Of a DNA stretch of 38,179 bases, positions 23,385 to 38,179 are shown in pieces; position 1 is the stretch's first letter, and each line of letters begins with the position of its first letter. The stretch spans positions 1-38,179 of the IMG/VR virus record IMGVR_UViG_3300027742_000019. One strand, given 5' to 3'. Origin of the DNA: a virus. The position numbers and the translations under genes are program-made. The notes beneath the pieces were generated by a model that saw only the letters and a program-made list of their open reading frames with translations, was not told the DNA's origin and ran no database searches.

Positions 23385-24596
23385 ATGTCAATAATATTAA
23401 CAAATGAACAACAAAGTGTTGTAAAACAAATAATTGGTTGGTCTGTAAACGGTAGTGAGCGATGTTTCTTTCTTAAAGCAGCAGCAGGTACAGGGAAAAC
23501 TACAATAATGAAAGAGACTTTACCATTATTACCTGATGTAATAGTCGTTGCGCCAACAGGGAAAGCAGCGAGTGTTTTGCAAGACAAAACAGGCTATCCA
23601 GTAAAAACAATTCACTCATTATTATATTTACCAGAAGAAAATATTGATGGCGAATGGCTTGAGTTAAGAAAAAATCACGAAGAAAACCCTGATGATGAAC
23701 TGGCTAAAAAAGCGTTTTTTGATTATAAATCAAGAATCAATGAAGTTAATTTTATTGATAAGAAAACTAAGTTTTCAGGCAATGCAGTTATTGTTATCGA
23801 TGAAGCGTCAATGGTTGGTGATGCTATGGCTAACGATTTGTTGAATACTGGCGCTAGGTTATTATTTATTGGCGATGATTCACAACTACCACCAGTTCAA
23901 CAAAAAGCGTTCTTTCATAATTCAGCGACTACAGCTAGGCTAACAAAAGTCCACAGACAAGCGCTAGATTCTGATATTCTGCGATTAGCTACATTAATAA
24001 GAAATGGTGAATCAATTCGTTTTTCTGATTGGGAAACAGGTGATGCGATTATCACAACATCAAAGAATGTTGCTAAAGATGATTGGTTAGCAGCAGACCA
24101 ATTATTAACTGATACAAACGCACAGCGCAAAAAGTTAAATCGCTATTTTAGAAATGCGCTTGGTTATTCTGGAAATAATTTAATCGAACGCGGTGAGAAA
24201 ATCATTTGCTTAAAAAATAATTGGGAGCGAGAAATTCCTTTTATTAACGGTGTGCAATGTCATGTTGGTAATGATATTCGCAATGTGGGCGCTGATTTAA
24301 TGATGGAAACTAATTACGGTAATATGCGTACTGTTGTTTCATGCCCTGATTATTATTTTCGTTGTAATTATCAAATGATGCCTTATATGCCATATTCCGA
24401 ATTTCAAGGTATGGATTTATTTGATTACGGTTACTGTATTACGGTACATAAATCACAAGGTAGCGAATGGGATAATGTTATTTTTGCTGATTCACGTTAT
24501 GCCATTAAAACCTATAAAAATGATATGAACGCTAGAGCTTTGTTATACACAGCGATAACTCGGGCGAGTAAAAATTTTACATTGGTGATGAAATGA
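23385..24596 (+). CDS. SF1 helicase, RecD/Dda-like
   Basis: A 403-residue DNA helicase. Motifs: LTNEQQSVV (Q motif), AAAGTGKTT (Walker A, Lys38), VAPTGKAAS (Ia), VIVIDEASM (Walker B), LFIGDDSQLPPV (III) and, at the C terminus, TVHKSQGSEWDNV and YTAITRASKNF (V/VI). These define a RecD-like SF1B 5'-3' helicase similar to T4 Dda in size. It probably unwinds DNA or remodels protein-DNA complexes during phage replication. Its stop overlaps the start of polymerase III alpha (ATGA), showing coupling. Confidence 0.9.
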   Translation: MSIILTNEQQSVVKQIIGWSVNGSERCFFLKAAAGTGKTTIMKETLPLLPDVIVVAPTGKAASVLQDKTGYPVKTIHSLLYLPEENIDGEWLELRKNHEENPDDELAKKAFFDYKSRINEVNFIDKKTKFSGNAVIVIDEASMVGDAMANDLLNTGARLLFIGDDSQLPPVQQKAFFHNSATTARLTKVHRQALDSDILRLATLIRNGESIRFSDWETGDAIITTSKNVAKDDWLAADQLLTDTNAQRKKLNRYFRNALGYSGNNLIERGEKIICLKNNWEREIPFINGVQCHVGNDIRNVGADLMMETNYGNMRTVVSCPDYYFRCNYQMMPYMPYSEFQGMDLFDYGYCITVHKSQGSEWDNVIFADSRYAIKTYKNDMNARALLYTAITRASKNFTLVMK

Positions 24597-27704: not shown

Positions 27705-29419
27705 TGCTTAAAATAAAAACAAACAGTAGAAACCAACTGATACTTAGTGCTAAATTAACAGCAGAGGTTATGGCTTTTTATGATGATTTTCCATCGTTTA
27801 AAAAGTATAACGGTCGTGATTTAATTATCCGACAAACAGGCGCAAATATTGAACATTTAACATCATTCGATGGAGATTTTGAATATGAGACGGACGAAGC
27901 AAAGTTGGTGGTTGAAACATTCCTTACCAAAAAAGAAGAAGAAGCCAAACTCTTAATGCAGCGTGACGTTTTAAATAATTCTTATGAACTGAAAACTGAT
28001 TTTGAATTTGCTCGTTCACCAATGAAGCATCAAGTCGAAGCGTTTTTATTAAGTCGTGACAAAGAATATTTTGCTTTGTTTCATGAGCAAGGATTAGGGA
28101 AAACTAAAACTACGATTGATTCTGCCGTATATCTTTACGAAAAAGAATTGATTAATTGTTTAGTGGTTATAGCGCACCCGAATGGTTTACATAGAAATTG
28201 GACTGATTATGAAATTCCAGAAGACGTGCCAAAGCGTATTGATTATTCTTGTTTCGCATGGTCAAGTAAGTTTGGTAAAAAGCGTAAAGAGTTAATGTAT
28301 GAAATGATTGAAAGTAAGGGGAGTGAATTTAAAATCTTTGCTTTCAATGTTGAAGCATTTAGCTCAGATAAAGCAAGAAAACCATTGCTTGATATTTTAA
28401 AACAAAATCAATGTATGTTAGTTATTGACCAAAGCGCGAGTATTAAAAATTCACAAGCGAAACGTACTAAATTTTTAGTGAAAGATGCTGCTAATTTTGC
28501 AAAGTACAAACGCATTTTAGATGGTTCGCCATTAGCTGAAAATCCTAGTGAGTTGTATTCGCAATTTATGTTTTTGAACCAAGATATTATTGGTCACGAC
28601 ACATGGACGGGTTTTAAAAATGAATTTTGTACGATTGGTCGATTCAATGAAATTTCAGGTTATCGAAACATTGAACGATTGATGTCAAGAATTCAACCCT
28701 ATTTACATAGAGCGTTAGAAGAAGAATGTTTAGATTTACCGAAACGCATTTATAAAACATTTTGTTATGATTTGTCGCCCACTGAAATGAAAATATATGA
28801 AGAACTGCGAGTATCTAAGTTCACATTATTTGAAGGTGATGCGATTGATGCGCCATTACCTATTGTGAAATCAATTCGTATGCAACAAGTCACAAGTGGT
28901 TGGTTTTCAGGTCAAGACAGTTTTCGCAGTATTGAAGAAACACCTACCAGAGTTAAGGCGCTAAAAGATTTAATCAGCACCTTTGGTGAAGATGAAAAGG
29001 TGTTGATATTCTCGCGTTTCAAAGCTGATATGAAAGTTATTAAAGAAGCGTTAGGCGACGATTGTGTTGATTATTATGGTGATACTGAACAAGAACAACG
29101 TGAAATTAATAAACGTGAATACCAACAAGGTAAGGCGCGTTTCTTAGTTGGTAATCAAACTACCATGGGAATTGGTCATACGTTTACCGCGACAAAGCAC
29201 GTTATTTTTTACGCGAATAGTCATGCTTTACGAGCAAGAATAGAATCAGAAAAACGCGCACACCGCAAAGGGCAAGAAAAACAAGTGATTGTCTGGGATT
29301 TAATTGCGAATAACACACAAGATAAAAAGATACGTGATACATTGAGAAACAAAAAACAAGTTGCTGATATTATTATGGGTGACCCTGATTCTTTCTTTAT
29401 GGGAGATGCTAATGATTAG
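27704..29419 (+). CDS. SNF2-like SF2 ATPase with DQSA in place of the DExx box
   Basis: A 571-residue SNF2-family protein. Motif I is EQGLGKTKT (Lys133), followed by VIAHPNGLHRNW (Ia). Motif II reads VIDQSASIKN with Asp242 and Gln243 where Glu is expected. The C-terminal lobe has VLIFSRFKADM, a GNQTTMGIGHTFTA motif and EKRAHRKGQ (motif VI arginines). Similar phage proteins help replication or recombination near nuclease genes. A VRR-NUC-like nuclease follows immediately, overlapping by five bases. If Gln243 is real, ATP hydrolysis may be weakened. Confidence 0.85.
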   Translation: MLKIKTNSRNQLILSAKLTAEVMAFYDDFPSFKKYNGRDLIIRQTGANIEHLTSFDGDFEYETDEAKLVVETFLTKKEEEAKLLMQRDVLNNSYELKTDFEFARSPMKHQVEAFLLSRDKEYFALFHEQGLGKTKTTIDSAVYLYEKELINCLVVIAHPNGLHRNWTDYEIPEDVPKRIDYSCFAWSSKFGKKRKELMYEMIESKGSEFKIFAFNVEAFSSDKARKPLLDILKQNQCMLVIDQSASIKNSQAKRTKFLVKDAANFAKYKRILDGSPLAENPSELYSQFMFLNQDIIGHDTWTGFKNEFCTIGRFNEISGYRNIERLMSRIQPYLHRALEEECLDLPKRIYKTFCYDLSPTEMKIYEELRVSKFTLFEGDAIDAPLPIVKSIRMQQVTSGWFSGQDSFRSIEETPTRVKALKDLISTFGEDEKVLIFSRFKADMKVIKEALGDDCVDYYGDTEQEQREINKREYQQGKARFLVGNQTTMGIGHTFTATKHVIFYANSHALRARIESEKRAHRKGQEKQVIVWDLIANNTQDKKIRDTLRNKKQVADIIMGDPDSFFMGDAND

Positions 29420-29825
29420 AAAGGAGATACGAATTGAAAAAGATTTGGACGTTTGCCTTCGAAATGTACTTACAAAGTATGGGAATACTTATAAAGTTGA
29501 TACTAATGTCGGTTATGGGTTTCCTGATTTTTACTTTGTGGGTGAGTTTACTTGTTGGGTTGAAGATAAAATCGCTGAAAAATTGGGTGACAAAATTAAG
29601 TTTCAAGCTGGGCAACCGTCTTGGTTGAGTGAAAACAATAATGTTGCCAATACGTTCATTTTAGTTTATTATAAAAATGAAAATGTTTTTTATTTATACT
29701 CAGGTAAAGATGCAAGAACATTACAATTTAACGGTGATGTTGTATCACCATTAGCGACTTTTGATAAGCGCACTTTTAAAGAAATTTACGGGAGATTACA
29801 TGAATTTTGCACAAGAAATTCTTAA
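29415..29825 (+). CDS. PD-(D/E)XK nuclease, VRR-NUC-like
   Basis: A 136-residue protein with the nuclease core: GFPDFYFV with Pro38-Asp39, then 11 residues on, WVEDK with Glu51 and Lys53, and a FILVYYKNENVFYLY strand pair. This is the order of phage VRR-NUC-like resolvases or nucleases that pair with SNF2-like genes. The start at 29415 has GGGAGA eight bases upstream; longer starts (29361) lie inside the SNF2 gene. It is translationally coupled to the ATPase and overlaps the next gene. Confidence 0.75.
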   Translation: MRKEIRIEKDLDVCLRNVLTKYGNTYKVDTNVGYGFPDFYFVGEFTCWVEDKIAEKLGDKIKFQAGQPSWLSENNNVANTFILVYYKNENVFYLYSGKDARTLQFNGDVVSPLATFDKRTFKEIYGRLHEFCTRNS

Positions 29826-30063
29826 AATAGAAATGTCGGAAGGCGAATATGTTCAAATTATTCGTGACATTTCTAATTGGCAGAAAGTACAGTTATTGTT
29901 TGATAATAACAAAGATGAAGATGATTTTTTATGTTATTTAAGAAAAGCCTTACAAGTTGAAATGAAAACTAAACGAAGATGGACTATCATTAAGCGCTTA
30001 CACCAAGGTTATCATAACCTAGTTCGTCAACGTGAACTTAAATCAATCATGGATATTGTTTAG
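29800..30063 (+). CDS. Small hypothetical protein at the end of the replication operon
   Basis: An 87-residue helical protein (FAQEILKIEMSEGEYVQII, then KRRWTIIKRLHQGYHNLVRQRELKSIM) starting with ATG at 29800 behind GGGAGA. It overlaps the nuclease gene by 26 bases in another frame and meets the only leftward gene tail to tail with a 21-base overlap. Basic C-terminal helix could bind nucleic acid. No family recognised. Confidence 0.6.
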   Translation: MNFAQEILKIEMSEGEYVQIIRDISNWQKVQLLFDNNKDEDDFLCYLRKALQVEMKTKRRWTIIKRLHQGYHNLVRQRELKSIMDIV

Positions 30064-30249
30064 TACAATATTGCCATTTTTTAAGAAGAAATCGAAGTCT
30101 TGGCGCATTGATTGTCGCCAAACTTCTTTACTCTTTTGGTAGTGTACAAAACCGTTAATCATTTTATAAAGCGTATTTTCATACCGCACAGTATAACATT
30201 CACCCGTATTCCCGTTTAAACCAATCATATCAATTCTACTGTTTTCCAT
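30043..30249 (-). CDS. Leftward small hypothetical protein
   Basis: A 68-residue protein on the minus strand, the only convincing leftward gene in the window. Read from 30249: ATG preceded by AAAAGGT at good spacing, with GENTL-type beta-strand pattern (TGECYTVRYENTLYKMINGFVHYQ) and an aromatic helix. No HTH was recognised. It points away from the dUTPase and shares its upstream region, including the operator-like dyad, suggesting divergent control. The strand bias of its surroundings makes it a candidate lysogeny-type or moron gene. Confidence 0.55.
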   Translation of the reverse strand: MENSRIDMIGLNGNTGECYTVRYENTLYKMINGFVHYQKSKEVWRQSMRQDFDFFLKNGNIVLNNIHD

Positions 30250-30265
30250 TTATTTTACCTTTTTA

Positions 30266-30306
30266 TTAAAACAATGTTTGCTTTATTAAGCGTTCTACGT
30301 TATATT
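30266..30306 (+). promoter_or_regulatory. Operator-promoter before dUTPase, copy 1
   Basis: The 16-base motif TTAAAACAATGTTTGC (30266-30281) contains an imperfect dyad AAACA-A-TGTTT. It overlaps the -35 box TTGCTT (30278-30283); 17 bases on is TATATT (30301-30306). The identical 16-mer recurs at 36568 in the same promoter arrangement. Probably a repressible early promoter feeding dUTPase, the Cro-like gene and the first cassette block. Confidence 0.6.
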
Positions 30307-30344
30307 CTATCACAGTTAGTTAATAATTAAAAAAGGAAAAAGAA

Positions 30345-30737
30345 ATGACACCAGTTTATAAAACTAAATATGCGGCTGCGGCTGATTTATTTTGTAGTGA
30401 GAATACAGAAATTGAGCCTCATACTATTCGTTGCATACCAACAGGTTATTTTTTACCTGAGTATTTAAAAGATGAATGTAAAAATCATTACATTGAAGTT
30501 AAGCCACGTTCAAGTTTACCAATGAAAACGGGTTTAATTGATACTTTGGGCGGTGGTGTTTTAGATTTAGATTATACAGGTGAGGTTTTCCTTCAAGTCT
30601 ATAACACGAATAATTTTAATATTTACATCAATGAAGGTGAGCGTATCGGTCAATGCTTATTAAAGAAATTTGAAGATTGCATTGATTGGGAACGAGAAGA
30701 TAATCAGCGTGGCGAAAGTGGGAGTACAGGGAAATGA
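30345..30737 (+). CDS. dut: dUTP diphosphatase (dUTPase)
   Basis: A 130-residue trimeric-type dUTPase that hydrolyses dUTP to dUMP and keeps uracil out of phage DNA. All five motifs are recognisable: AAAADL (I), PRSSLPMKTG (II), GVLDLDYTGEV (III), GERIGQCL (IV) and RGESGSTGK (V). Motif V lacks the Gly-Phe pair of the usual RGEGGFGSTG, so the aromatic residue that caps the uracil is missing. A GGAAAAAG ribosome site precedes ATG. It overlaps the next gene by four bases. Confidence 0.9.
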   Translation: MTPVYKTKYAAAADLFCSENTEIEPHTIRCIPTGYFLPEYLKDECKNHYIEVKPRSSLPMKTGLIDTLGGGVLDLDYTGEVFLQVYNTNNFNIYINEGERIGQCLLKKFEDCIDWEREDNQRGESGSTGK

Positions 30738-30943
30738 AAATCGTTAATGTGATTGATGAAAACGCAGAAGTTATGAGTTTGCCTGATTATATTGCCGCTA
30801 AGTTTCGTGGCTCACAAACGAGTTTTGCTTATGCTCAAGGTGTTAAATTACCGCAAGTGACGCAATGGATTAATAAGAATTTTATTGTAGTGAATGATGA
30901 ATTGCATTCACCAAGACGTAAGTTAAATCAGATGGAAAGTTAG
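30734..30943 (+). CDS. Cro-like helix-turn-helix regulator
   Basis: A 69-residue protein with a helix-turn-helix: IAAKFRGSQTSFAYAQGVKLPQVTQWINKNFIVVNDELHSPRR. The QTSFAYAQGVKLPQVTQWI span fits the two helices of Cro-type repressors and the N-F-I-V-V end fits a dimer strand. It is coupled to dut (ATGA) and located between the two kinds of genes (early and cassettes). It is the best candidate to bind the dyad AAACA-A-TGTTT upstream of dut and at 36568. The stop codon is immediately followed by a GTTATGT core. Confidence 0.7.
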   Translation: MKIVNVIDENAEVMSLPDYIAAKFRGSQTSFAYAQGVKLPQVTQWINKNFIVVNDELHSPRRKLNQMES

Positions 30944-30949
30944 TTATGT
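30943..30949 (+). other. GTTATGT core, likely left end of the first cassette block
   Basis: GTTATGT overlaps the last base of the Cro-like stop codon. It equals the right core of four downstream attC-like sites, and the gene that follows ends in the complementary ACATAAC (31253). No attC-like arm is visible to its left, so it resembles a secondary insertion point or attI-like end. Confidence 0.4.
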
Positions 30950-30973
30950 TTGAGAAAGAAGGAGTTAAATAAA

Positions 30974-31258
30974 ATGGAAAACGAGCAAGAAAAACCAACT
31001 GTCAGTAGTCCGACTTCCACGGCGTTGTTATGTGCATGCACAGGAATAAAAGAAGGAACGGTAACTAGTAAAGAATATAAAGAAGCTTACAGTGTAACAA
31101 CCATGATGGTGGTTGGTAAGACAATGGTGCCACAAACCATTTATTACGATGAATCGTGGATAATTTATATAAGCAAAAACGGAGAGTACGGCAGTTGCGA
31201 GGTAAGTAAAACCACCTTTAAAAAAGTGCAGCCGTTGGATTATGTAAAATGCACATAA
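30974..31258 (+). CDS. First cassette gene, unknown
   Basis: A 94-residue protein of unknown function. It begins with a polar, disordered-looking segment, then ALLCACTGIKEGTVTSKEYK and a beta-rich part (SVTTMMVVGK, WIIYISKNGEYGSCEVSK). AGAAGGAG stands 10 bases before ATG 30974; a TTG at 30950 would add eight residues and is not favoured. The unit begins with GTTATGT (30943) and its stop codon lies inside ACATAAC (31253-31259), the cassette layout seen downstream. Confidence 0.6.
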   Translation: MENEQEKPTVSSPTSTALLCACTGIKEGTVTSKEYKEAYSVTTMMVVGKTMVPQTIYYDESWIIYISKNGEYGSCEVSKTTFKKVQPLDYVKCT

Positions 31259-31374
31259 CACTGTTACTAAGGAAATTTAATCCTTCTTTTACACATTAGA
31301 CCAGTAATCATAAACCATTGTTTTAGTGTGTGAATTTATTTTGAATACGACGATTACGGGGAAATAAGGCAAAT
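31253..31374 (+). repeat. 122-base direct repeat, copy 1
   Basis: Identical to 34486-34607 except for one base (T at 31290, C at 34523). Begins with ACATAAC and includes a hairpin AAGGA/TCCTT followed by CTTTT, an ACACATTA/TAGTGTGT partial dyad, a weak promoter-like TTGTTT-17-TGAATA, and AATAAGG as ribosome site. The repeat ends exactly at the A-T of the next gene's ATG. Confidence 0.95.
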
Positions 31375-31729
31375 GGATAGTTTTAAAGAATATTTAGAAA
31401 AAGGACAGCGTTTAGAAAAGCTTAAATATTTAGAAGAAAAATACGAACGTTTAAGTGAAATCAATGCTAAATTAGAAAAACAATTAACGTCAACACGTAG
31501 AGCGTTAAGTGATGCACGTAAAAAAATAGCAAAAGCTAAACGCAAAGAAACTTATATTGAACCAAGAAGTGTTGAAGTTAAAAAACATATTGCTAAAATC
31601 ATTAAAAATGGTTTTGATGGTAAGGTTAGCGAAAAGGTTATAGAAATATCAAAGCAATTTTTTTATAGTGAAGGGTATATCATGCAAATGTGGTACGATG
31701 AAATAAAGAGAACTAAAAATGAAAGTTGA
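31373..31729 (+). CDS. Coiled-coil protein with C-terminal GFD/YSE domain
   Basis: A 118-residue protein. Residues 1-60 form a charged coiled coil (LEKGQRLEKLKYLEEKYERLSEINAKLEKQ), and the C-terminal 50 residues (VKKHIAKIIKNGFDGKVSEKVIEISKQFFYSEGYIMQMWYDEIKRTK) are a domain duplicated in the next gene. The domain pattern suggests a small winged- or HTH-like fold, but function is unknown. The start codon overlaps the last two bases of the 122-base repeat, whose AAGG acts as ribosome site. It overlaps the next gene by 11 bases. Confidence 0.65.
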   Translation: MDSFKEYLEKGQRLEKLKYLEEKYERLSEINAKLEKQLTSTRRALSDARKKIAKAKRKETYIEPRSVEVKKHIAKIIKNGFDGKVSEKVIEISKQFFYSEGYIMQMWYDEIKRTKNES

Positions 31730-31889
31730 GCCAAAATATAAACGTGTGCAAGCGTACATTGAAAAAGTACAAGATGAAGGGTTTGATTGTAGCGTACGTG
31801 AAATGATTTCTAAAATAGCGTTAAAGTTTTCATACAGTGAAGCGCGAGTGAATTCCTTCTGGTATAAAATAGATAGAACAAAAGGTTAG
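31719..31889 (+). CDS. 56-residue paralogue of the upstream C-terminal domain
   Basis: A short protein, MKVEPKYKRVQAYIEKVQ..., that aligns end to end with residues 70-115 of the preceding protein: V-x-x-I-x-K, GFD, V-x-E-x-I, F-x-YSE, W-Y-x-I-x-RTK. It lacks the coiled coil. The start overlaps the previous stop (TGA/ATGA-like, 11 bases). Probably a stand-alone copy of the same domain that could hetero-oligomerise. Too short for many gene finders. Confidence 0.55.
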   Translation: MKVEPKYKRVQAYIEKVQDEGFDCSVREMISKIALKFSYSEARVNSFWYKIDRTKG

Positions 31890-31897
31890 TAATTGCA

Positions 31898-32104
31898 ATG
31901 AATGATGAAAAGAAGTTTACTATAGCAAGTCAGATTGAGCCTATTGTTATGTTGCGACTAAAGGAAGCGCGTATAGTTTCTTTTAAGCCGCAAGATGATG
32001 GGACTTTTAGAGTTCAAGAAAAGTGTGATAGATATTTCACTGATTATTTGACGAAAAGTGAAATGCTAAAGCTGGCACAAGAAATAATTGATTTGGCAAC
32101 ATAA
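31898..32104 (+). CDS. Cassette gene, unknown 68-residue protein
   Basis: A 68-residue mixed alpha/beta protein (IVMLRLKEARIVSFKPQDDGTFRVQEKCDRYFTDYLTKSEMLKLAQEIIDL). The pattern, several strands then a C-terminal helix with a TKSEMLKLAQEI segment, resembles the 70-residue protein at 32746 (LSKQDILILAKCVG), so the two may be distant relatives. Its stop codon lies in ACATAAC, the left core of the first complete attC-like site. Confidence 0.6.
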   Translation: MNDEKKFTIASQIEPIVMLRLKEARIVSFKPQDDGTFRVQEKCDRYFTDYLTKSEMLKLAQEIIDLAT

Positions 32105-32194
32105 CCTTTTGCGTTAAGCGGTGAGTGAAAGTGGCGAAGCCAACTGTAACGAATCCGACGACCAAAGGGAGTGAATTTAAACGCGTTGTTAGGC
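32099..32194 (+). other. attC-like recombination site 1 (96 bases)
   Basis: Left core ACATAAC (32099-32105), right core GTTAGGC (32188-32194). The inner arms GCGTTAA and TTTAAACGC pair with one extra T, and a GGC-GAA-GCC hairpin sits in the loop. The right core belongs to the following cassette, which ends in GCCTAAC. Confidence 0.7.
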
Positions 32195-32236
32195 GGTTTG
32201 CTTGACAACTTAACCAAAAAGAAAGAGGAAACACAA

Positions 32237-32461
32237 ATGGATAATCAACACAAGAAAATCAAAGGCTACCGTGATTTAAGCCAGCAAGAAATTAACGACA
32301 TGAATGATATTAAAGCTGAAGGCGAACGCTTAAAAAATGTTATTGCAATAATGCGCGAGCGAAAAGGTTTAGATCAACGATGGGTTTCCATAGCTGAAAC
32401 GCATTTACAGCAAGGTATTATGGCTGCTGTTCGTGCAGTAGCGCAGCCAGAGAGTTTTTAA
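32237..32461 (+). CDS. Acb2/Tad1-like cyclic-nucleotide sponge (putative anti-CBASS/anti-Thoeris)
   Basis: A 74-residue protein matching, by recall, the Acb2/Tad1 hairpin family: KIKGYRDLSQQEINDMNDIK, then DQRWVSIAETHLQQGIMAAVRAVAQP. Members form small helical hairpin oligomers that bind the cyclic nucleotide messengers made by CBASS or Thoeris, blocking the abortive-infection effector. Key features seen: the GYR-L-S motif, the RW and the QQG-M-x-x-x-RAVAQP end. ATG 32237 follows GAGGAAA. A longer frame starts inside the attC-like site and is spurious. It shares a cassette with the next gene. Confidence 0.75.
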   Translation: MDNQHKKIKGYRDLSQQEINDMNDIKAEGERLKNVIAIMRERKGLDQRWVSIAETHLQQGIMAAVRAVAQPESF

Positions 32462-32464
32462 GTT

Positions 32465-32668
32465 ATGGCTATTGGTGATAAAGCTAGGATGTTACAGAAG
32501 TTTGGTGAAGAGCTTTGCAAGGTTGCTAACGACCGAACAAGGCTGCAAATAGCTTTTGAGCAAACATTAAGTAGGCTTGGTTTGCCAGAAAGCCAAATAA
32601 ACAAAATAGTAAAAGATGTTAGAGCGGCTGATTTTAATAGTTTACACAAAACGTTGCGACTGGATTAA
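32465..32668 (+). CDS. Second gene of the Acb2-like cassette, unknown
   Basis: A 67-residue helical protein (ARMLQKFGEELCKVANDRTRLQIAFEQTLSRLGLPESQINKIVKDVRAADF). It starts three bases after the Acb2-like stop codon without a clear ribosome site, implying translational coupling. There is no core between the two genes, so they move together as one cassette beginning TTAGGCGG and ending CCGCCTAAC. Partner or independent anti-defence role is a hypothesis only. Confidence 0.55.
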   Translation: MAIGDKARMLQKFGEELCKVANDRTRLQIAFEQTLSRLGLPESQINKIVKDVRAADFNSLHKTLRLD

Positions 32669-32670
32669 CC

Positions 32671-32728
32671 GCCTAACCTTTTACTTAATGGGTAAGCGTA
32701 GCGCGTCCCGTTGAAGTTGTTGTTATGT
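32671..32728 (+). other. attC-like recombination site 2 (58 bases)
   Basis: Left core GCCTAAC (32671), right core GTTATGT (32722-32728). The arms ACTTAATGGG and CCCGTTGAAGT pair with a single extra base on the right strand, the hallmark of attC. The left core is the exact complement of GTTAGGC at the start of the same cassette (32188). Confidence 0.85.
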
Positions 32729-32745
32729 GACGTATTGGAGGAATG

Positions 32746-32955
32746 ATGAATAGAGATTACGCATTTAAAACTAAATTTGATAACGAACGAATTAAAATTG
32801 TTGCGGCAGGGTTTGAAAGCCCTTTGAATGACCTAGTTTTATGCTTAAAAGATGAATACGGTAGGAGTGTTGAGGCTTTGTTAAGTAAGCAAGATATTTT
32901 AATACTGGCAAAGTGTGTTGGAATAAATGAAGGCGATTTAACGCAAGACACATAA
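32746..32955 (+). CDS. Cassette gene, unknown 69-residue protein
   Basis: A 69-residue alpha/beta protein (NRDYAFKTKFDNERIKIVAAGFESPLNDLVLCLKDEYGRSVEALLSKQDILILAKCVG). ATG at 32746 is chosen over 32743 because GGAGG would be too close to the first. Similar in layout to the product of 31898. Cassette begins GTTATGT and ends ACATAAC, which contains the stop codon. Function unknown. Confidence 0.6.
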   Translation: MNRDYAFKTKFDNERIKIVAAGFESPLNDLVLCLKDEYGRSVEALLSKQDILILAKCVGINEGDLTQDT

Positions 32956-33077
32956 CCTTAACTTAACGGGTTGCGACCCAAAGGAGAAAAATATGGTAAA
33001 CACACCAATTGATTTAGATTATTTACACACAAATGAAAAGCAAGCTGTTAGCAATCCCGTTGAAGCCGTTGTTAGCA
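32950..33077 (+). other. attC-like recombination site 3 (128 bases, long loop)
   Basis: Left core ACATAAC (32950), right core GTTAGCA (33071-33077). Arms CTTAACGGG and CCCGTTGAAG pair with one extra C. An 80-base loop contains AAAGGAG and an ATG (32993) open into the next cassette. A second GTTAGCA at 33047 is probably fortuitous or an old core. Confidence 0.65.
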
Positions 33078-33118
33078 GTGAATTATTAAATACTAAAATT
33101 GATAGAGAGAGAGAAAGA

Positions 33119-33322
33119 ATGGAAATGAAAAAAGTATTAGTCAAAGCAAATATAGAGATAATGGTTGAAGTGCCAGTAACGGTAAGTTTAGAGGATGCTG
33201 AGAAAATAGCACTGTTTAACATAGAGCCATTAATACCAAGTATCAAGTCAGACTTAAACGAAATGATAAATGATATTGAAATTTATGATTGTGAAGTGGT
33301 GAGCACGGAAGAGTTAGAGTAA
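33119..33322 (+). CDS. Cassette gene, unknown 67-residue protein
   Basis: A 67-residue beta/alpha protein (KKVLVKANIEIMVEVPVTVSLEDAEKIALFNIEPLI...) with acidic C terminus. ATG 33119 follows GAGAGAGAAAG. A reading frame open from 32993 would add 42 residues translated from the attC-like site and leader (AVSNPVEAVVSS), which I regard as non-coding because the same leader precedes a different gene at 37957. A protein starting at 32993 remains possible since AAAGGAG precedes it. Its cassette ends in TGCTAAC. Confidence 0.55.
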   Translation: MEMKKVLVKANIEIMVEVPVTVSLEDAEKIALFNIEPLIPSIKSDLNEMINDIEIYDCEVVSTEELE

Positions 33323-33326
33323 TTCC

Positions 33327-33416
33327 TGCTAACCCTAAGCTAAACGGGCGCTAACACCGCCCTTTAAATTAACGAAAACAAACTGTTAGCGCTCCGATTT
33401 AAGCGAGTTGTTAGCA
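33327..33416 (+). other. attC-like recombination site 4 (90 bases)
   Basis: Left core TGCTAAC (33327-33333), right core GTTAGCA (33410-33416), exact complements. Arms GCTAAACGG (left) and CCGATTTAAGC (right, complement GCTTAAATCGG) pair leaving two single unpaired T positions on the bottom strand. The textbook attC geometry of extrahelical bases. Confidence 0.85.
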
Positions 33417-33442
33417 GAGCAATAACACAAGGATAACAACGA

Positions 33443-34072
33443 ATGCGGATTTTAGTGGCGTGTGAAGAAAGCCAAGCAGTAACAATTGAATTAAGAAGGT
33501 TAGGTCATGAAGCTTATAGTTGCGATCTAGTAGAGTGTAGCGGTGGCAAACCAGAATGGCACTTACAGACTGATTTAATGGAGTTATTAGATCAAGAGTG
33601 GGATATGATTTTAGCCTTTCCTCCTTGCACTTATCTGACGGTAACAGGGAGTAGGTGGTTTAACGTTGAGCGCTATGGAGATAAAGCCATTAAGCGCCAC
33701 GAAGACCGCAAAGATGCGATAAGATTTTTTATGGCTATAGCCAATGCAAAATGCGACAAAATAGCTATAGAAAATCCAGTTGGCGTGATGAGCAGCGAAT
33801 GGAGAAAGCCAGATCAAATAGTTAACCCGTACCAGTTTGGTGATGCGTTTGAGAAGAAAACTTGCTTATGGTTAAAGGGGCTGCCTTTACTAGAAGCGAC
33901 AAACGAAGTTGAGCCACCAAAAAGAACAGAGTTTGCAAGCGGAAAAACAATGCCTGCTTGGTATGCTGACGCATGGAAACTACCAAAAGAAGAAAGAGCT
34001 AAACTGAGAAGTAAAACCTTTCCAGGTATAGCAAAAGCAATGGCAACTCAGTGGGCTGGATTTGCCTGCTAA
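33443..34072 (+). CDS. Methyltransferase-like cassette protein (C5 cytosine type fold)
   Basis: A 209-residue protein resembling phage genes annotated as cytosine methyltransferases: MRILVACEESQAVTIELRRLGHEAYSCDLV (SAM-binding start), FPPCTYLTVTG with a PPC motif (catalytic Cys), and IENPVG. The downstream part (KTCLWLKGLPLL) is also typical. No target-recognition domain of a full C5 methyltransferase is present, so its substrate is uncertain; modification of phage DNA against restriction is plausible. Three GATC tetramers occur in it, against about one in the whole 32-kb backbone. The stop codon lies inside TGCTAAC. Confidence 0.7.
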   Translation: MRILVACEESQAVTIELRRLGHEAYSCDLVECSGGKPEWHLQTDLMELLDQEWDMILAFPPCTYLTVTGSRWFNVERYGDKAIKRHEDRKDAIRFFMAIANAKCDKIAIENPVGVMSSEWRKPDQIVNPYQFGDAFEKKTCLWLKGLPLLEATNEVEPPKRTEFASGKTMPAWYADAWKLPKEERAKLRSKTFPGIAKAMATQWAGFAC

Positions 34073-34176
34073 CCTCGTTTTAAAATGCAAAAACGAAATA
34101 AGTACTAAACTAAATTGAGAGCATAACAAGCAAGAGGCGCCTAGCTGTTTTTGTCTTTTTGAAAATATTGTTATGT
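34067..34176 (+). other. attC-like recombination site 5 (110 bases)
   Basis: Left core TGCTAAC (34067-34073) complements GTTAGCA at the start of its cassette. Right core GTTATGT (34170-34176). Long A/T arms (TTTTAAAATGCAAAAACG and the complementary CTGTTTTTGTCTTTTTGAAAA) pair with several bulges. Contains an internal GCATAAC. Confidence 0.7.
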
Positions 34177-34209
34177 TACCTACACAAATATTAAATTGGA
34201 GAAAGAAAA

Positions 34210-34491
34210 ATGAAAGACACAACATTGTTAGATATTGCAATAAAAATAAATGAAGTAGCAAAAAGTGATGGTGTTTATGCCGAAGTTAATTTTAACCCTG
34301 AACCTTACAGAAACGCACCAAACGAAATAAAACTATGGGATATAGCGTTAACTTATAATAACTACCGACGAGTAGAGCTATTTAATAATAATATGCAGAT
34401 AGAAGATTTTGAGGTTGACCGAATAGCGAATATTTTACTAAAAGATTTATTCGCTGATTATTTTAGCAACAAACTTGGTTTAGTAACATAA
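34210..34491 (+). CDS. Cassette gene, unknown 93-residue protein
   Basis: A 93-residue acidic alpha/beta protein (TTLLDIAIKINEVAKSDGVYAEVNFNPEPY, later IANILLKDLFADYF). ATG follows TTGGAGAAAGAAA. Its leader from GTTATGT shares about 30 of 34 bases with the leader of the cassette at 37331. The stop codon lies in ACATAAC at the start of the second 122-base repeat. Function unknown. Confidence 0.6.
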   Translation: MKDTTLLDIAIKINEVAKSDGVYAEVNFNPEPYRNAPNEIKLWDIALTYNNYRRVELFNNNMQIEDFEVDRIANILLKDLFADYFSNKLGLVT

Positions 34492-34607
34492 CACTGTTAC
34501 TAAGGAAATTTAATCCTTCTTTCACACATTAGACCAGTAATCATAAACCATTGTTTTAGTGTGTGAATTTATTTTGAATACGACGATTACGGGGAAATAA
34601 GGCAAAT
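34486..34607 (+). repeat. 122-base direct repeat, copy 2
   Basis: Matches 31253-31374 in 121 of 122 positions. It follows the stop of the 93-residue cassette gene just as copy 1 follows the 94-residue gene. After it, the start codon present after copy 1 is replaced by ATA. Confidence 0.95.
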
Positions 34608-34733
34608 AAAAAGATTGAAGAAGTTGGTATGATATATAAAGAATTAAAAAAGCTTGATGCAAACCCTAAGTATACAACAAGAGGTAGTTTCACAGAAAGA
34701 TACTATATTAATTGCACTTTAAAGATAGGTTAA
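34608..34733 (+). pseudogene. Short reading frame, probably a start-less gene remnant
   Basis: After the repeat a frame reads KKIEEVGMIYKELKKLDANP then a second half to a stop at 34731-34733. The first Met is at 34629, giving only 34 residues. It could be a truncated helical protein cut by insertion of the 122-base repeat, or a real small peptide. No ribosome site precedes the Met. Confidence 0.3.
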
Positions 34734-34738
34734 TAATT

Positions 34739-35149
34739 ATGTATAAATACGGCAAGAATAGTCTCGCAAAAATAGAAACAGTTGATGAAACATTACAATT
34801 AATTTGTCACAAAGCTATTGAGATAATGAATAACAAGCACCCTAAATCTCATAAGGTAGACTTTGGGATTAGTTGTGGTATTCGTACATTAGCTATTCAA
34901 AAAGAAATGTTTGCTCAAGGAAAATCTAAAGCTGATGGTGTTAACAATAAGTCGTATCATCAGTATGGTCTTGCCGTTGATTTTTATGCGTATGTTGATG
35001 GTAAAGCGAATTATGACTTAGTGAATATTCAAGCAATCGCGTTATGTTTCTTACAAGCAGCGAGTTTTTACAATGTAGAATCGCGTTGGGGTGGTCATTT
35101 TAGCACAATTTATGATTCACCTCATTTTGAATTGCCAATGATTCCATAA
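34739..35149 (+). CDS. Endolysin, M15-type L,D/D,D-peptidase
   Basis: A 136-residue zinc peptidase of the M15/VanY type that cleaves peptidoglycan stem peptides. Ligands visible: YHQYGLAVDF with His74 and Asp81, and SPHFEL with His129. The SCGIRTLAIQKEMFAQGKSKADG segment matches the conserved substrate-binding part (S-G-x-R). Length equals the T5 endolysin type. ATG 34739 is used with AGG 10 bases upstream; TTG at 34712 would add nine residues. First gene of the lysis module. No signal peptide, so it needs a holin. Confidence 0.85.
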   Translation: MYKYGKNSLAKIETVDETLQLICHKAIEIMNNKHPKSHKVDFGISCGIRTLAIQKEMFAQGKSKADGVNNKSYHQYGLAVDFYAYVDGKANYDLVNIQAIALCFLQAASFYNVESRWGGHFSTIYDSPHFELPMIP

Positions 35150-35189
35150 CTGCTTATAATAATAGGAAATTCTTTTAATTAGTGATGGA

Positions 35190-35288
35190 ATGTTAATTAT
35201 ATCATTAGAACTTTTGTTTATATCTGTTACAATACCGTTAATTATATTCATCGGTATTGTTTTGGTAAAATTATTCTATGCAAAATGA
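35190..35288 (+). CDS. Putative 32-residue membrane peptide before the lysis cluster
   Basis: ATG 35190 opens a 32-residue frame that is almost entirely hydrophobic (LIISLELLFISVTIPLIIF, then a closing VKLFYAK). It overlaps the next start by 11 bases, so it could drive coupled translation of a gene that has no good ribosome site of its own. Size and position are consistent with a small holin or holin-accessory peptide. Not distinguishable from chance. Confidence 0.35.
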   Translation: MLIISLELLFISVTIPLIIFIGIVLVKLFYAK

Positions 35289-35631
35289 AACGCTTGAAAA
35301 AATGTTGGAACACCAACAAACTGAAATTTCAGAAATAAAAGACACTCAAAACGGTATCGCTGAAACATTGCATACTTTAGTTTCTATGGAATCAGGTGTT
35401 AAGGCGAATGAACAGAATATTAAAGACCATGAAACTAGGATTCGAGGGTTAGAATCTTATAAATGGGTAACAGTATTAATGGCTTTGGTTATTACCAGTG
35501 GGGTTGCTTTCATGGGAAACAAAGCATTAGAGTTGGCAACCCACGCAGAAGAAAATCCACCGATAACCAAAGCTGATATTATTGATGCCATAAAACAAGG
35601 TAATAAAAAAGATGTTAGCGACAATAACTAA
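35278..35631 (+). CDS. Membrane protein with coiled coil, lysis-associated (XhlA-like layout)
   Basis: A 117-residue protein: a coiled coil (residues 1-62, ETLEKMLEHQQTEISEIK and RIRGLESYK), one transmembrane segment (WVTVLMALVITSGVAFMG, about 62-80) and a short C terminus. This is the shape of haemolysin XhlA-like and similar holin-associated proteins beside endolysin genes. The start lacks a clear Shine-Dalgarno and overlaps the small membrane reading frame. It overlaps the spanin gene by 20 bases. Confidence 0.65.
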   Translation: MQNETLEKMLEHQQTEISEIKDTQNGIAETLHTLVSMESGVKANEQNIKDHETRIRGLESYKWVTVLMALVITSGVAFMGNKALELATHAEENPPITKADIIDAIKQGNKKDVSDNN

Positions 35632-36091
35632 ATTCTTTTCAAGTTCAACTGGCGGCTTATGCGCAAAGATTGGCGCAGTGGCGACCGCTTTAGTCACAAT
35701 CTATACTTTGCATTCTAATATTGTTGATAATGCAAGAAAGAATGCCTACCTTAAAGCGCAAACAGAATTCAATAAAAAAGTTAATGAAGAAAATGCTAAA
35801 GTGTTAGCCGTTGCTAAATTAGAATTTGAGAAACAAAGCAAAGCATATAATGATGAATTGAAAATAGCATTAGCGAAAGCGACAAAAAAGAAAGAAGATT
35901 ATTACAATCAACTGCTTAAAAAAGAGCGATTGAAAAATATTGAATTAAGTAAAAGTGAGGCGACAAAAAATGAACTTATTAAACGTGCGGAATCAGTTCG
36001 TGATACTCTTTCTAGTGATGCTGTCCAGTTGCTCCACGAAACAAGAAATCAAATTAAACCGCCCGTTGACTATGACCTTACCGACCATTAA
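35612..36091 (+). CDS. Inner-membrane spanin (Rz-like)
   Basis: A 159-residue protein with an N-terminal hydrophobic segment (GAVATALVTIYTL, about 21-33) then a long periplasmic coiled coil (KAQTEFNKKVNEENAKVLAVAK... and LLKKERLKNIELSKSEATK). This is the topology of i-spanins that disrupt the outer membrane with an o-spanin. The o-spanin gene starts inside it, out of frame. The protein ends shortly after the o-spanin signal peptide region. No family-level sequence match was sought. Confidence 0.75.
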   Translation: MLATITKFFSSSTGGLCAKIGAVATALVTIYTLHSNIVDNARKNAYLKAQTEFNKKVNEENAKVLAVAKLEFEKQSKAYNDELKIALAKATKKKEDYYNQLLKKERLKNIELSKSEATKNELIKRAESVRDTLSSDAVQLLHETRNQIKPPVDYDLTDH

Positions 36092-36296
36092 GAAAGTGGT
36101 TGTTGATGATTTATTACCGCCTATTCCTGAGTTATTGTTGCGTCCCTGTTACGATGATTTAACACCCCCTGTTCCAATTACAAATAAAGTTTCTGTTATC
36201 TTACAAAATGATGCGACTGTTTTTAGCATGATTAACGAATGCTATTTAAGACAATTACGTTTAATTCAAGAAGTGATATTGCGTGAACATGAATAA
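35970..36296 (+). CDS. Outer-membrane lipoprotein spanin (Rz1-like), overlapping the Rz-like gene
   Basis: A 108-residue protein beginning MNLLNVRNQFVILFLVMLSSC with a lipobox (L-S-S-C) at Cys21, then a proline-containing linker (RPLTMTLP, DDLLPPIPEL, DDLTPPVP). Lipidated proline-containing periplasmic proteins are the o-spanin partner. ATG 35970 follows GAGG; it lies in another frame 122 bases inside the Rz-like gene. It is longer than typical Rz1 and extends beyond the Rz stop. Confidence 0.75.
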   Translation: MNLLNVRNQFVILFLVMLSSCSTKQEIKLNRPLTMTLPTIKKVVVDDLLPPIPELLLRPCYDDLTPPVPITNKVSVILQNDATVFSMINECYLRQLRLIQEVILREHE

Positions 36297-36534
36297 AGAG
36301 CCGTTATATAAAACATTACGTCATTACAGAATACCAACAGTTTGTTGGGCTTTTGTGTTGATGTGGTCATATATTCATGTTGTGCGAATTATGTTTGACA
36401 ATTTAGAACATCTTAATCTACAAGTCCTTGGTCTTGCTGCCGCTTTTTTAACACAAGCTGTTATCTCAACGCGTGATGTTTTAAAGGATTTGCGCGACCC
36501 AATGAATGACGAGCATCATAAAATAGAGAAATAA
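36289..36534 (+). CDS. Two-transmembrane protein, candidate holin
   Basis: An 81-residue protein with two hydrophobic segments (VCWAFVLMWSYIHVV and LQVLGLAAAFLTQAVI) and a charged C terminus (KDLRDPMNDEHHKIEK), a class II holin-like shape. It overlaps the o-spanin by eight bases and ends the lysis cluster. ATG 36289 was chosen over GTG 36283. Holin function is inferred from topology and location. Confidence 0.6.
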   Translation: MNKEPLYKTLRHYRIPTVCWAFVLMWSYIHVVRIMFDNLEHLNLQVLGLAAAFLTQAVISTRDVLKDLRDPMNDEHHKIEK

Positions 36535-36567
36535 ATTTAAGTTTTTTCGTTTTATTTTGATATTTTG

Positions 36568-36608
36568 TTAAAACAATGTTTGCATAATTAAAGTAAATGA
36601 GTTAATAT
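36568..36608 (+). promoter_or_regulatory. Operator-promoter before the second cassette block, copy 2
   Basis: TTAAAACAATGTTTGC (36568-36583), identical to 30266-30281, with AAACA-A-TGTTT dyad. The motif overlaps TTGCAT (36580-36585); 17 bases later is TAATAT (36603-36608), a near-consensus sigma70 promoter. Transcription would begin near 36615 and enter the second cassette block. Confidence 0.65.
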
Positions 36609-36640
36609 TTTTGGTAGTTAGAATTAAGAAGGGAAATACG

Positions 36641-36859
36641 ATGACCGATAGATGTTATGTATCAGAGCAAATCGCAGAATATTGCAATCGTGATGAATCG
36701 ACAATTTGTTGGGCGTGTGAAAATGTTATTAGCGAAGATGATGAATCAAATGAAATCAGAACTGAATTCGATGGTATTCAATGCGTTTGCGATAATTGTT
36801 TTCGTGAAATGATTAATGAAATTAAAGAATTAGTTAAAGGAATGAGGAATGAGGAATGA
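36641..36859 (+). CDS. Cysteine-rich (zinc-ribbon-like) small protein
   Basis: A 72-residue protein with ICWACEN (C-x-x-C) and CVCDNCF (C-x-C-x-x-C) separated by an acidic loop, plausibly one zinc site. ATG 36641 follows AAGGGAA; a longer frame from 36611 is unsupported. It is the first gene after the second operator-promoter. The C terminus runs into a seven-base repeat array, so its last residues depend on copy number. Function unknown. Confidence 0.65.
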   Translation: MTDRCYVSEQIAEYCNRDESTICWACENVISEDDESNEIRTEFDGIQCVCDNCFREMINEIKELVKGMRNEE

Positions 36860-36894
36860 GGAATGAGGAATGAGAGATGAAAGATGAAAGATGA
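36839..36894 (+). repeat. Heptanucleotide repeat array (5 x GGAATGA plus 3 variants)
   Basis: Five perfect GGAATGA units followed by GAGATGA and two AAGATGA, covering the end of the Cys-rich gene and the start of the next. Each GGAATGA contains a Shine-Dalgarno-like GAGGA and an ATG. Copy-number change shifts the frame by one base per unit. Confidence 0.9.
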
Positions 36895-37043
36895 AAGTGT
36901 TAAGTCAAAAAGAATTGATTAAATTGTGGATAGAAGAAGAAGGTGAATATTCTGGTGAATTAGTTTATTTTTTTAATGAAGTTTTTGAGTTTATTAAATG
37001 GTACGATGAATATAGAAAGAGGGAATTAAACAATGAAAAATAA
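36891..37043 (+). CDS. Small hypothetical protein after the repeats
   Basis: A 50-residue acidic helical protein (VLSQKELIKLWIEEEGEYSGELVYFFNEVFEFIKWYDEY). Its ATG is in the last AAGATGA unit, so the repeat supplies the ribosome-binding context. It overlaps the following gene by 11 bases. Too short for reliable family assignment; translational coupling to upstream start-stop codons in the repeats is possible. Confidence 0.45.
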   Translation: MKVLSQKELIKLWIEEEGEYSGELVYFFNEVFEFIKWYDEYRKRELNNEK

Positions 37044-37224
37044 AATGTCAACTTCACAAAAACAAATGTTGTATTCTCATGCTGAAATAAATGCGAAAAA
37101 GCCGCAGAAGATTCCCAAGAAAATAGATAGTCCTGTGTTGAAAGCGCGTAGGGCTATTGAAAAAATGAATGATGATTTAGCGATTGAGCATATTAATACA
37201 GCTCATTTAGAAGAAGATTTTTAG
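37033..37224 (+). CDS. Small basic hypothetical protein
   Basis: A 63-residue polar protein (KNKMSTSQKQMLYSHAEINAKKPQKIPKKIDSPVLKARRAIEKMNDDLAIEHINTAHLEEDF) with a lysine-rich middle and acidic tail. GAGGG lies about 10 bases before ATG. The last gene before attC-like site 6. No motif recognised; disorder expected in the middle. Confidence 0.5.
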   Translation: MKNKMSTSQKQMLYSHAEINAKKPQKIPKKIDSPVLKARRAIEKMNDDLAIEHINTAHLEEDF

Positions 37225-37237
37225 TATGAAAAAAGCA

Positions 37238-37337
37238 AACTAACCTAGAGCTAATGTGCCACCACGTTTTTTAGGTGGTAGAGTGAGGGGCGAGCGATAG
37301 CCAACAGTGGTGGTAGCAATTCAGCGTGTTGTTATGT
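37238..37337 (+). other. attC-like recombination site 6 (100 bases)
   Basis: Left core AACTAAC (37238-37244), a loose match; right core GTTATGT (37331-37337). Arms GCTAATGTGCCACCAC and the complement of GTGGTGGTAGCAATTCAGC pair with single bulges. Inner hairpin CCACC/GGTGG. Confidence 0.65.
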
Positions 37338-37369
37338 TACCGTTACAAATATTAAATTGGAGAAATAAG

Positions 37370-37558
37370 ATGAGTATTAGATGCAGATTAGGTTGGCATA
37401 ATTGGACTAAGTTTGGATTGCCAAAAAGTTGCTATGGACAACTGAGTCAATTTAGGGAGTGCAAACGATGTGGAGTAGTTAATTCCAAGAAAGGCTACCA
37501 TGAACAAGCCACATCAGAAGAAATAAAAGAATCATTAGATGAAGGTAATGGAGGCTAA
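37370..37558 (+). CDS. Cassette gene: small zinc-ribbon-like protein
   Basis: A 62-residue protein of the shape seen in small phage proteins with CRLGWHNW and ECKRCG (one His and three Cys, likely Zn binding; DUF1660-like from recall). ATG 37370 follows TTGGAGAAATA. The frame extends upstream to 37307 only through the attC-like site. Its leader resembles that of the cassette at 34170. The R'' at its end is ATATAAC, a close but imperfect complement of GTTATGT. Confidence 0.6.
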   Translation: MSIRCRLGWHNWTKFGLPKSCYGQLSQFRECKRCGVVNSKKGYHEQATSEEIKESLDEGNGG

Positions 37559-37569
37559 GTTGTTTAGTA

Positions 37570-37625
37570 ATATAACCTTTGCGTTAAGCGGCTGTTTACA
37601 GTCCGACTTTAAGTTGTTGTTATGT
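37570..37625 (+). other. attC-like recombination site 7 (56 bases)
   Basis: Left core ATATAAC (37570-37576), right core GTTATGT (37619-37625). Arms TTAAGCGGCTG and CAGTCCGACTTTAA pair with three extra bases (A, T, A on the bottom strand). A compact, highly typical attC. Confidence 0.85.
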
Positions 37626-37655
37626 GGCGTATTGAATATTAAAAGGGGATTTAAG

Positions 37656-37898
37656 ATGGAATGGTTACTGGGCATAAGTGTGGTTTTAAATATTTTTCTT
37701 GGGTTATTTGTTGCCGCTTTAATTTACGGGAAAGTTAGCGCTGAAAACGAAGCATTCCACGCAAGAGAGGAGTGGAGCAAATGGGAAGATCGCTTCTATG
37801 AAGCTCAAGGTAGGTTATTGCAAGACCATAATCTATTTGTTGCACCTACAATGGGTGAGTTTGGCAAGATGATTATTAAGGAACATAAAGACACATAA
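37656..37898 (+). CDS. Cassette gene: membrane-anchored small protein
   Basis: An 80-residue protein with an N-terminal transmembrane segment (WLLGISVVLNIFLGLFVAALIY, about 3-24) then a soluble coiled segment (SAENEAFHAREEWSKWEDRFYEAQGRLLQ). ATG 37656 follows AAAAGGGG. A frame open from 37539 would start in another cassette and cross attC-like site 7, so it is rejected. Stop codon is in ACATAAC. Contains one GATC. Confidence 0.6.
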   Translation: MEWLLGISVVLNIFLGLFVAALIYGKVSAENEAFHAREEWSKWEDRFYEAQGRLLQDHNLFVAPTMGEFGKMIIKEHKDT

Positions 37899-37963
37899 CC
37901 GGTTATATTAGCCGGTAAACCGAGCGCAGCGATGATTTATCCGCGCTTAATTTGTTGTTAGCA
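37893..37963 (+). other. attC-like recombination site 8 (71 bases)
   Basis: Left core ACATAAC (37893-37899), right core GTTAGCA (37957-37963). Arms ATTAGCCGGTAAAC and the complement of GATTTATCCGCGCTTAAT pair with single extra bases on the right. ACATAAC complements the GTTATGT opening its cassette at 37619. Confidence 0.8.
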
Positions 37964-38000
37964 GTGAATTATTAAATACTAAAACAATAGGAATATAATT

Positions 38001-38179
38001 ATGTTTGGAAGTTTATTAAATAACATTAGTAATACATTAGAAGACTTTATTGATGACCCGATTGGTACAGCGGTAAAGGTTGCAACTCAACCAGTCGTTG
38101 ATGGTTGTGATTTACTTGAAGGTTTAACGGAGGGAGAGTTTAGGCATAAAGCGGCGTTAAGGCTTGGTGCCGATGTTGA
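38001..38179 (+). CDS. Cassette gene, truncated by the right edge
   Basis: The first 59 residues of a protein (MFGSLLNNISNTLEDFIDDPIG, TAVKVATQPVVDGCDLLEGLTEGEFRHKAALRLGADV). The DP-I-G-x-x-x-x-x-x-TQP-x-VDG and LTEGE segments resemble a small phage family I recall, without known function. Leader TTAGCAGTGAATTATTAAAT is the same as that of the cassette at 33071. The frame is open to the last base, so the gene and the array continue beyond the window. Confidence 0.65.
   Translation, partial: MFGSLLNNISNTLEDFIDDPIGTAVKVATQPVVDGCDLLEGLTEGEFRHKAALRLGADV

Follow-up and report, generated by a model that had tools for sequence, protein, structure and literature searches.

Integrase-less integron cassette arrays in a double-stranded DNA phage, and attC sites that appear to supply the start of the following gene

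Downstream of its lysis genes, a double-stranded DNA phage recorded in IMG/VR (G000) carries cassette genes separated by integron-like sites, which raises the question of what such an array is in a phage genome, how its cassettes are acquired, and how they are translated. We analyzed the record over its full 38,179 nt, hereafter the window. Phage-borne attC sites were earlier known from few phages. The backbone genes recognized in the window encode a portal, tape measure, primase-helicase, phrog_405 DNA polymerase, dUTPase, and endolysin. In our assessment, positions 36617-38179 are very probably the left part of an integrase-less cassette array (CALIN), one of three in this genome, in which a host integron integrase would move cassettes from a pool shared among phages and leaders within attC sites would start many of the genes.

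The part of this array within the window, array C, contains three plus-strand attC sites: site 6 (37238..37337), site 7 (37570..37625), and site 8 (37893..37963). They lie where the first-pass annotation had placed them, were picked up by eye and by two detectors, and share one architecture of R'' (NNNTAAC), L'', L', and R' (GTTANNN), in which L' pairs with L'' but has three additional bases. Site 6 has R'' AACTAAC, R' GTTATGT at 37331, and three extrahelical bases in L''/L', and was picked without using closure, as defined below; site 8 has R'' ACATAAC and R' GTTAGCA at 37957. Site 7, singled out earlier as a 56-nt hairpin with three extrahelical bases, is indeed one: between R'' ATATAAC and R' GTTATGT at 37619, alignment of L'' TTAAGCGGCTGT with the reverse complement of L' TTAAAGTCGGACTGT shows three bulges. 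The cassette genes, also on the plus strand, are a 62-aa open reading frame with a weak phrog_2670 match (37370..37558), an 80-aa frame with a hydrophobic stretch at its N-terminus and its stop codon inside the next R'' (37656..37898), and a phrog_13459 gene cut by the edge (38001..38179). The proposed start of the block at 36617 could not be upheld: the first R'', AACTAAC, requires an upstream GTTAGTT, and 36000-37238 has one-mismatch cores only.

Selection on the L''/L' arms alone returned three sites in 36600-38179 against a shuffle mean of 0.01 (three were reached in 0/100 shuffles) and six in 30900-38179 against 0.08; positions 1-30000 gave one site against 0.2, a count reached in 4 of 20 shuffles. 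Most sites have three extrahelical bases under a detector allowing three bulges. In integron arrays, the R' core of one site is part of the next cassette, so each R'' is expected to complement the R' that opens the same cassette, a property we call closure. Array A closes as GTTATGT31027/ACATAAC31253, and array B as GTTATGT31946/ACATAAC32099, GTTAGGC32188/GCCTAAC32671, GTTATGT32722/ACATAAC32950, GTTAGCA33071/TGCTAAC33327, GTTAGCA33410/TGCTAAC34067, and GTTATGT34170/ACATAAC34486. Array C matches at 7/7 positions in GTTATGT37619/ACATAAC37893 and at 6/7 in GTTATGT37331/ATATAAC37570. Among sites picked without closure in nine records, 23 of 40 neighboring pairs closed at 7/7, while permuting R' within arrays gave a mean of 8.8 closed pairs and reached 23 in none of 20,000 trials. 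Strict R''/R' matching within one site was also tried, but it overlooked the sites, as each R' core is part of the cassette that follows; the right test is closure across the cassette.

The first detector, which uses closure, found no three-site chain when 29001-38179 was dinucleotide-shuffled 200 times. Applied to 66 other phage loci, it found a weak three-site chain in two (L048 and L070, probably one phage; score 23), which we rejected as noise with poor closure. Array C scored 24 and array B 55, so this score alone is not decisive for array C; what is decisive is the arms-only count together with exact closure. The first arm detector allowed one bulge and missed sites with the type B leaders described below; its successor allows three, and settings were changed once before the final counts. 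The successor's chain through the window omits site 1 and includes a site at 35144 that we rejected on inspection.

The block had been described as open at the window edge, and it does continue. A pattern made from D1, the repeat that ends the arrays, matched a single IMG/VR contig, L005, whose first 18 nt equal window positions 38161-38178. L005 and the window disagree at the last base of the window, given which the contig may come from a close strain. At its other end, L005 breaks off within a portal gene that resumes in the first residues of the window, about one base being absent at the join. We infer that the window and L005 form one genome of about 47.8 kb, joined through the 18-nt overlap and gene continuity only. 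The gene cut at the window edge is completed on L005 as a 73-aa protein ending at L005:61, and its cassette is closed there by R'' TGCTAAC, which pairs at 7/7 positions across the contig edge (GTTAGCA at 37957, TGCTAAC at L005:67). The extension adds three attC sites to array C (L005:67-196, 455-583, and 742-854), and L005 carries a D12 adenine-methyltransferase cassette (PF02086), then D1, and beyond it the terminase large subunit gene and the start of the portal gene. Several AAAAAGTTAAGTTTTTTCG-like copies occur in L005:1860-2380, with a related stretch at window 36540-36555.

Two arrays flanking the lysis module had been reported, and there are in fact three: A (31027-31259), B (31898-34492), and C (37238 to L005:1608). 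The plus-strand lysis region (34739..36534) does lie between B and C, with array A as a third array; it comprises the endolysin gene (34739-35149; phrog_465, E 2.8e-37) and small frames 3' of it, up to 36534, that are spanin-like in position and on inspection. Array A opens with a half-attC bearing a type B leader (30974..31033, plus strand; Shine-Dalgarno sequence (SD), ATG, MENEQEKPTVSSPTSTA/LLC), for which R''/L'' were not found. The half-attC opening array B bears a type A leader (31898..31952, plus strand; MNDEKKFTIASQIEPI/V) and is identical to a leader of phage G011 at 43/55 positions, the best value in 1-30000 being 29. Array B continues on the plus strand with sites 1 (32099..32194), 2 (32671..32728), 3 (32950..33077; type A leader, SD and ATG at 32993, MVNTPIDLDYLHTNEKQAVSNPVEAV/VSS), 4 (33327..33416), and 5 (34067..34176). 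Its cassettes include a DNA methyltransferase gene (33443..34072, plus strand; phrog_757, E 5.5e-68) and a gene (32237..32461, plus strand) whose product is a predicted Acb2, of the anti-CBASS / cyclic-nucleotide sponge family, having both the Acb2/Tad1 hairpin domain (PF24729, E 2.9e-19; 69.4 bits against a cut-off of 27) and a match to a solved Acb2 (PDB 8h2j, E 2.1e-17). Read upstream, the Acb2 frame stays open into site 1 (32171-32461; GTG start, VNLNALLGGLLDN..), as is the corresponding frame in phage G007, possibly as a leader-like extension.

All three arrays end in D1, a 134-nt repeat whose start falls on the final R'' in each case (A, 31253; B, 34486; C, L005:1602). The plus-strand copy ending array A (31253..31386) is 96% identical to that ending array B (34486..34619), whose RNA folds into two hairpins (z -3.56). 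G004 also has D1 at an array end, as does G011 more weakly; in all, five arrays from three phage backgrounds end in D1. The two-hairpin fold has z values of -3.6 in the window, -2.7 in L005, and -1.9 in G004; the short G011 piece is without such a fold. D1 may be a terminator or insulator that closes the array. As a candidate attC it was rejected, having no R' partner on inspection.

Arrays of this kind fall within the CALIN class, for which at least two attC sites must lie close together: there are three in 37238-37963, three on L005, and five in array B, with the R''-L''-L'-R' architecture, extrahelical bases, and closure described above. An integron integrase (TIGR02249, PF00589) is absent from the window and L005, both of which may be incomplete records, and none of 12 phage records tested has one above cut-off; without an integrase the arrays are classed as CALINs rather than as complete integrons. 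The available text of Qi et al. (2023, PMC9892861) describes CALINs in virulent and temperate phages (TJE1, P12002L, PH101, and M16-3) that likewise are integrase-less attC arrays with methyltransferase cassettes, and it reports that IntI1 acts on phage attC sites. The phage described here differs from those accounts in having three arrays per genome, a shared D1 ending, leader attC sites, cassettes occurring across phage types, and an Acb2 cassette.

To place the sites more widely, we scanned with the attC 3'-half pattern AACTGTYAGYARTCCN{5,25}GTTGTTA, which matched 13 IMG/VR contigs; in two of these (GC above 0.5) no array was found, and two further patterns added L112-L115. Apart from this phage, the attC lineage is present in 15 IMG/VR contigs, which represent several phage types. 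Among 84,980 species genomes, the pattern matched one, Thalassotalea ND16A (L084), also the only match among 395 genomes of its order, a contrast that may partly reflect the attC sequences searched, since the scans were built on these phages' own sites. Relatives of the window phage were not found in IMG/VR with helicase and polymerase queries, and INPHARED gave no match to the array region or to L005:60-600; a distant INPHARED search with array B gave, among the matches listed, genes for methyltransferases as well as short hits close to the Acb2 cassette. Three of the records (G007, G009, and G012) are one phage, and six (G002, G004, G005, G008, G010, and G413) have many proteins in common, with portal phrog_156 in G004 and G005; the others include G007, with inverted terminal repeats, and G013, with a tail sheath. 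A single-strand-binding-protein-like gene adjoins the array start in three of them (G004:23967-24479, G005:31702-32202, and G007:38464-38988). G007 also has palindromic, mutually inverted ends (1-92 and 55800-55925) and a large replication protein of the N15-type family phrog_4913, and may be a linear hairpin-ended phage-plasmid.

Cassettes are visibly shared between these phages. One cassette of G007 is 82% identical to the Acb2 cassette of the window; the two records otherwise have one protein in common (blastp 1e-8). The related phages G004 and G010 have backbone parts up to 93% identical and carry different cassettes at one locus, the array region being alike only in attC-like stretches. 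With three arrays here, the lineage in other contigs, cassettes common to largely unrelated phages, and this one variable locus, the earlier view that more than a single chance insertion is involved is well founded. It seems unlikely that the arrays are ancient acquisitions from the chromosomal integron of a bacterium, now inert and altered only by homologous recombination between phages. Such frozen remnants would fit the lack of an integrase in the phage records tested. They would also fit the attC bodies, which often differ after a shared cassette, as crossing-over in conserved arms would yield and as homologous recombination could explain and simple IntI insertion does not. Nearly all cassettes are nevertheless still closed, the lineage spans several phage types against one matched bacterial genome, and related phages differ in array content.

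We prefer active exchange by a host integrase, in which the integron integrase of the infected host would recognize the folded bottom strands and insert or excise cassettes, and the phage would thereby draw on a pool common to other phages. The host is probably a marine gammaproteobacterium, because one Thalassotalea, with a complete IntI, has similar sites. In ND16A, the matching site sits among attC-like sites on inspection; as an example of the sedentary chromosomal integrons of marine Alteromonadales, it offers a similar attC 3' half, but the sites inspected there have no SD-ATG leader, unlike the leader sites described below. The pool would hold likely counter-defense genes (Acb2, DNA methyltransferases, and Lar), and the data suggest that it circulates in several phage types. 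It would then mirror the chromosomal integrons that serve as biobanks of defense systems (cited in the available text of PMC13064858), which also store arms-race genes, there against phages and here likely for them.

Some attC sites further appear to provide the gene after them with its start codon and N-terminal residues. An SD and ATG with a frame crossing R' into the next gene were present in 14 of 18 attC sites of at least 120 nt, against 0 of 59 shorter than 100 nt, and in three sites of 114-119 nt, counts that come from chained sites, used closure in site selection, and include the rejected 35144 site. These 17 leaders have 13-26 codons and fall into three types: A (..SNPVEAV/V and variants), B (..PTVSSPTCTA/LLC), and C (LLIVLLSV/LLVSLSGC, a lipoprotein signal peptide). 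Distances from ATG to R' are 48, 51, 75, and 78 in type A, 53 and 80 in type B, and 41, 47, and 50 in type C, each type keeping one frame. Further leaders lie at 31027 and 31946 (the half-attC sites opening arrays A and B), G011:8312, G411:9182, and G414:1532; the type B stretch in G013 did not come up as a leader. Of the 17 leader sites, 13 have another site after them, and in 9 of these the stop codon is inside the R'' of that next site. Leaders and bodies occur in several combinations: one body is found after two leaders (G004 and G011), MNIEEFANTIDLTEKPT.ASPIEPV leads into one body in G011 and another in G413, a type C leader precedes three bodies, and a Lar-family body (PF14354) is read from a type B leader.

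Since most long attC sites have an SD and an ATG whose leader codons stay in frame across the G^TT crossover, with the stop often in the cassette's own R'', many cassette genes may be exon-type bodies whose start is supplied by the attC that happens to precede them. We hold with moderate confidence that these phages share their own integron cassette lineage, in which long attC sites act as translation starts and integrase-type recombination makes new proteins by pairing exchangeable N-terminal leaders with bodies that lack a start. It is rather improbable that the leader frames are accidental and that translation begins within each cassette, leaving the attC ATG unused: some bodies do have an internal ATG (e.g., window 33116), but several have no early internal start on inspection (L005:137, L005:526, and G010), the Lar body begins at the crossover, and neither the split between long and short sites nor the single frame kept by each leader type despite unequal lengths would be expected. 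If the leader reading is true, recombination would exchange protein front ends, a new route from site-specific recombination to protein fusions that would help explain the translation of start-less cassettes inside arrays. A comparable case in the available text of PMC8876359 and PMC4670013 is ORF-11 of the class 1 integron attI1 and its fused cassettes, where a recombination site likewise gives translation signals to a cassette lacking them; ORF-11 is part of attI and works through coupled translation, whereas here the leader lies in the preceding cassette's attC and runs in frame into the next gene. Descriptions of leader attC sites, a mainly-phage attC lineage, or an Acb2 cassette were not found in the accessible portions of the open-access literature, and the lineage, the cassettes (including Acb2) common to largely unrelated phages, and the leader sites look new.

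Folding of the bottom strand had been proposed as a further check, and site 4 does fold well (z -3.66), while the free-strand energies of the sites are mostly unexceptional, including those of sites 6-8 (z -0.67, -1.35, and -1.16); support for sites 6-8 is architecture and closure, not fold stability. That the sites are repeated intergenic terminators or regulatory hairpins is very hard to credit: D1 folds as hairpins and, in the available text of PMC8876359, attC hairpins affect translation of downstream cassettes, but R'/R'' closure and one-sided extra bases are needless in terminators, and an Rfam search gave no match.

The DNA polymerase (24593-27439) has its nearest known relatives in Vibrio phage vB_ValP_VA-RY-3 (39%) and Cronobacter phage vB_CsaP_Ss1 (37%), both annotated as Pol III alpha. 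An exact 16-nt repeat, TTAAAACAATGTTTGC, lies at 30266-30281 and 36568-36583 within a 61-nt repeat of 77% identity, one copy upstream of the dUTPase gene that precedes array A and the other upstream of array C. This repeat is promoter-like; as an attI it was ruled out, the GTTRRRY core being absent. Ahead of site 6, at 36838-36893, heptamers of the AGGAATG type stand in tandem.
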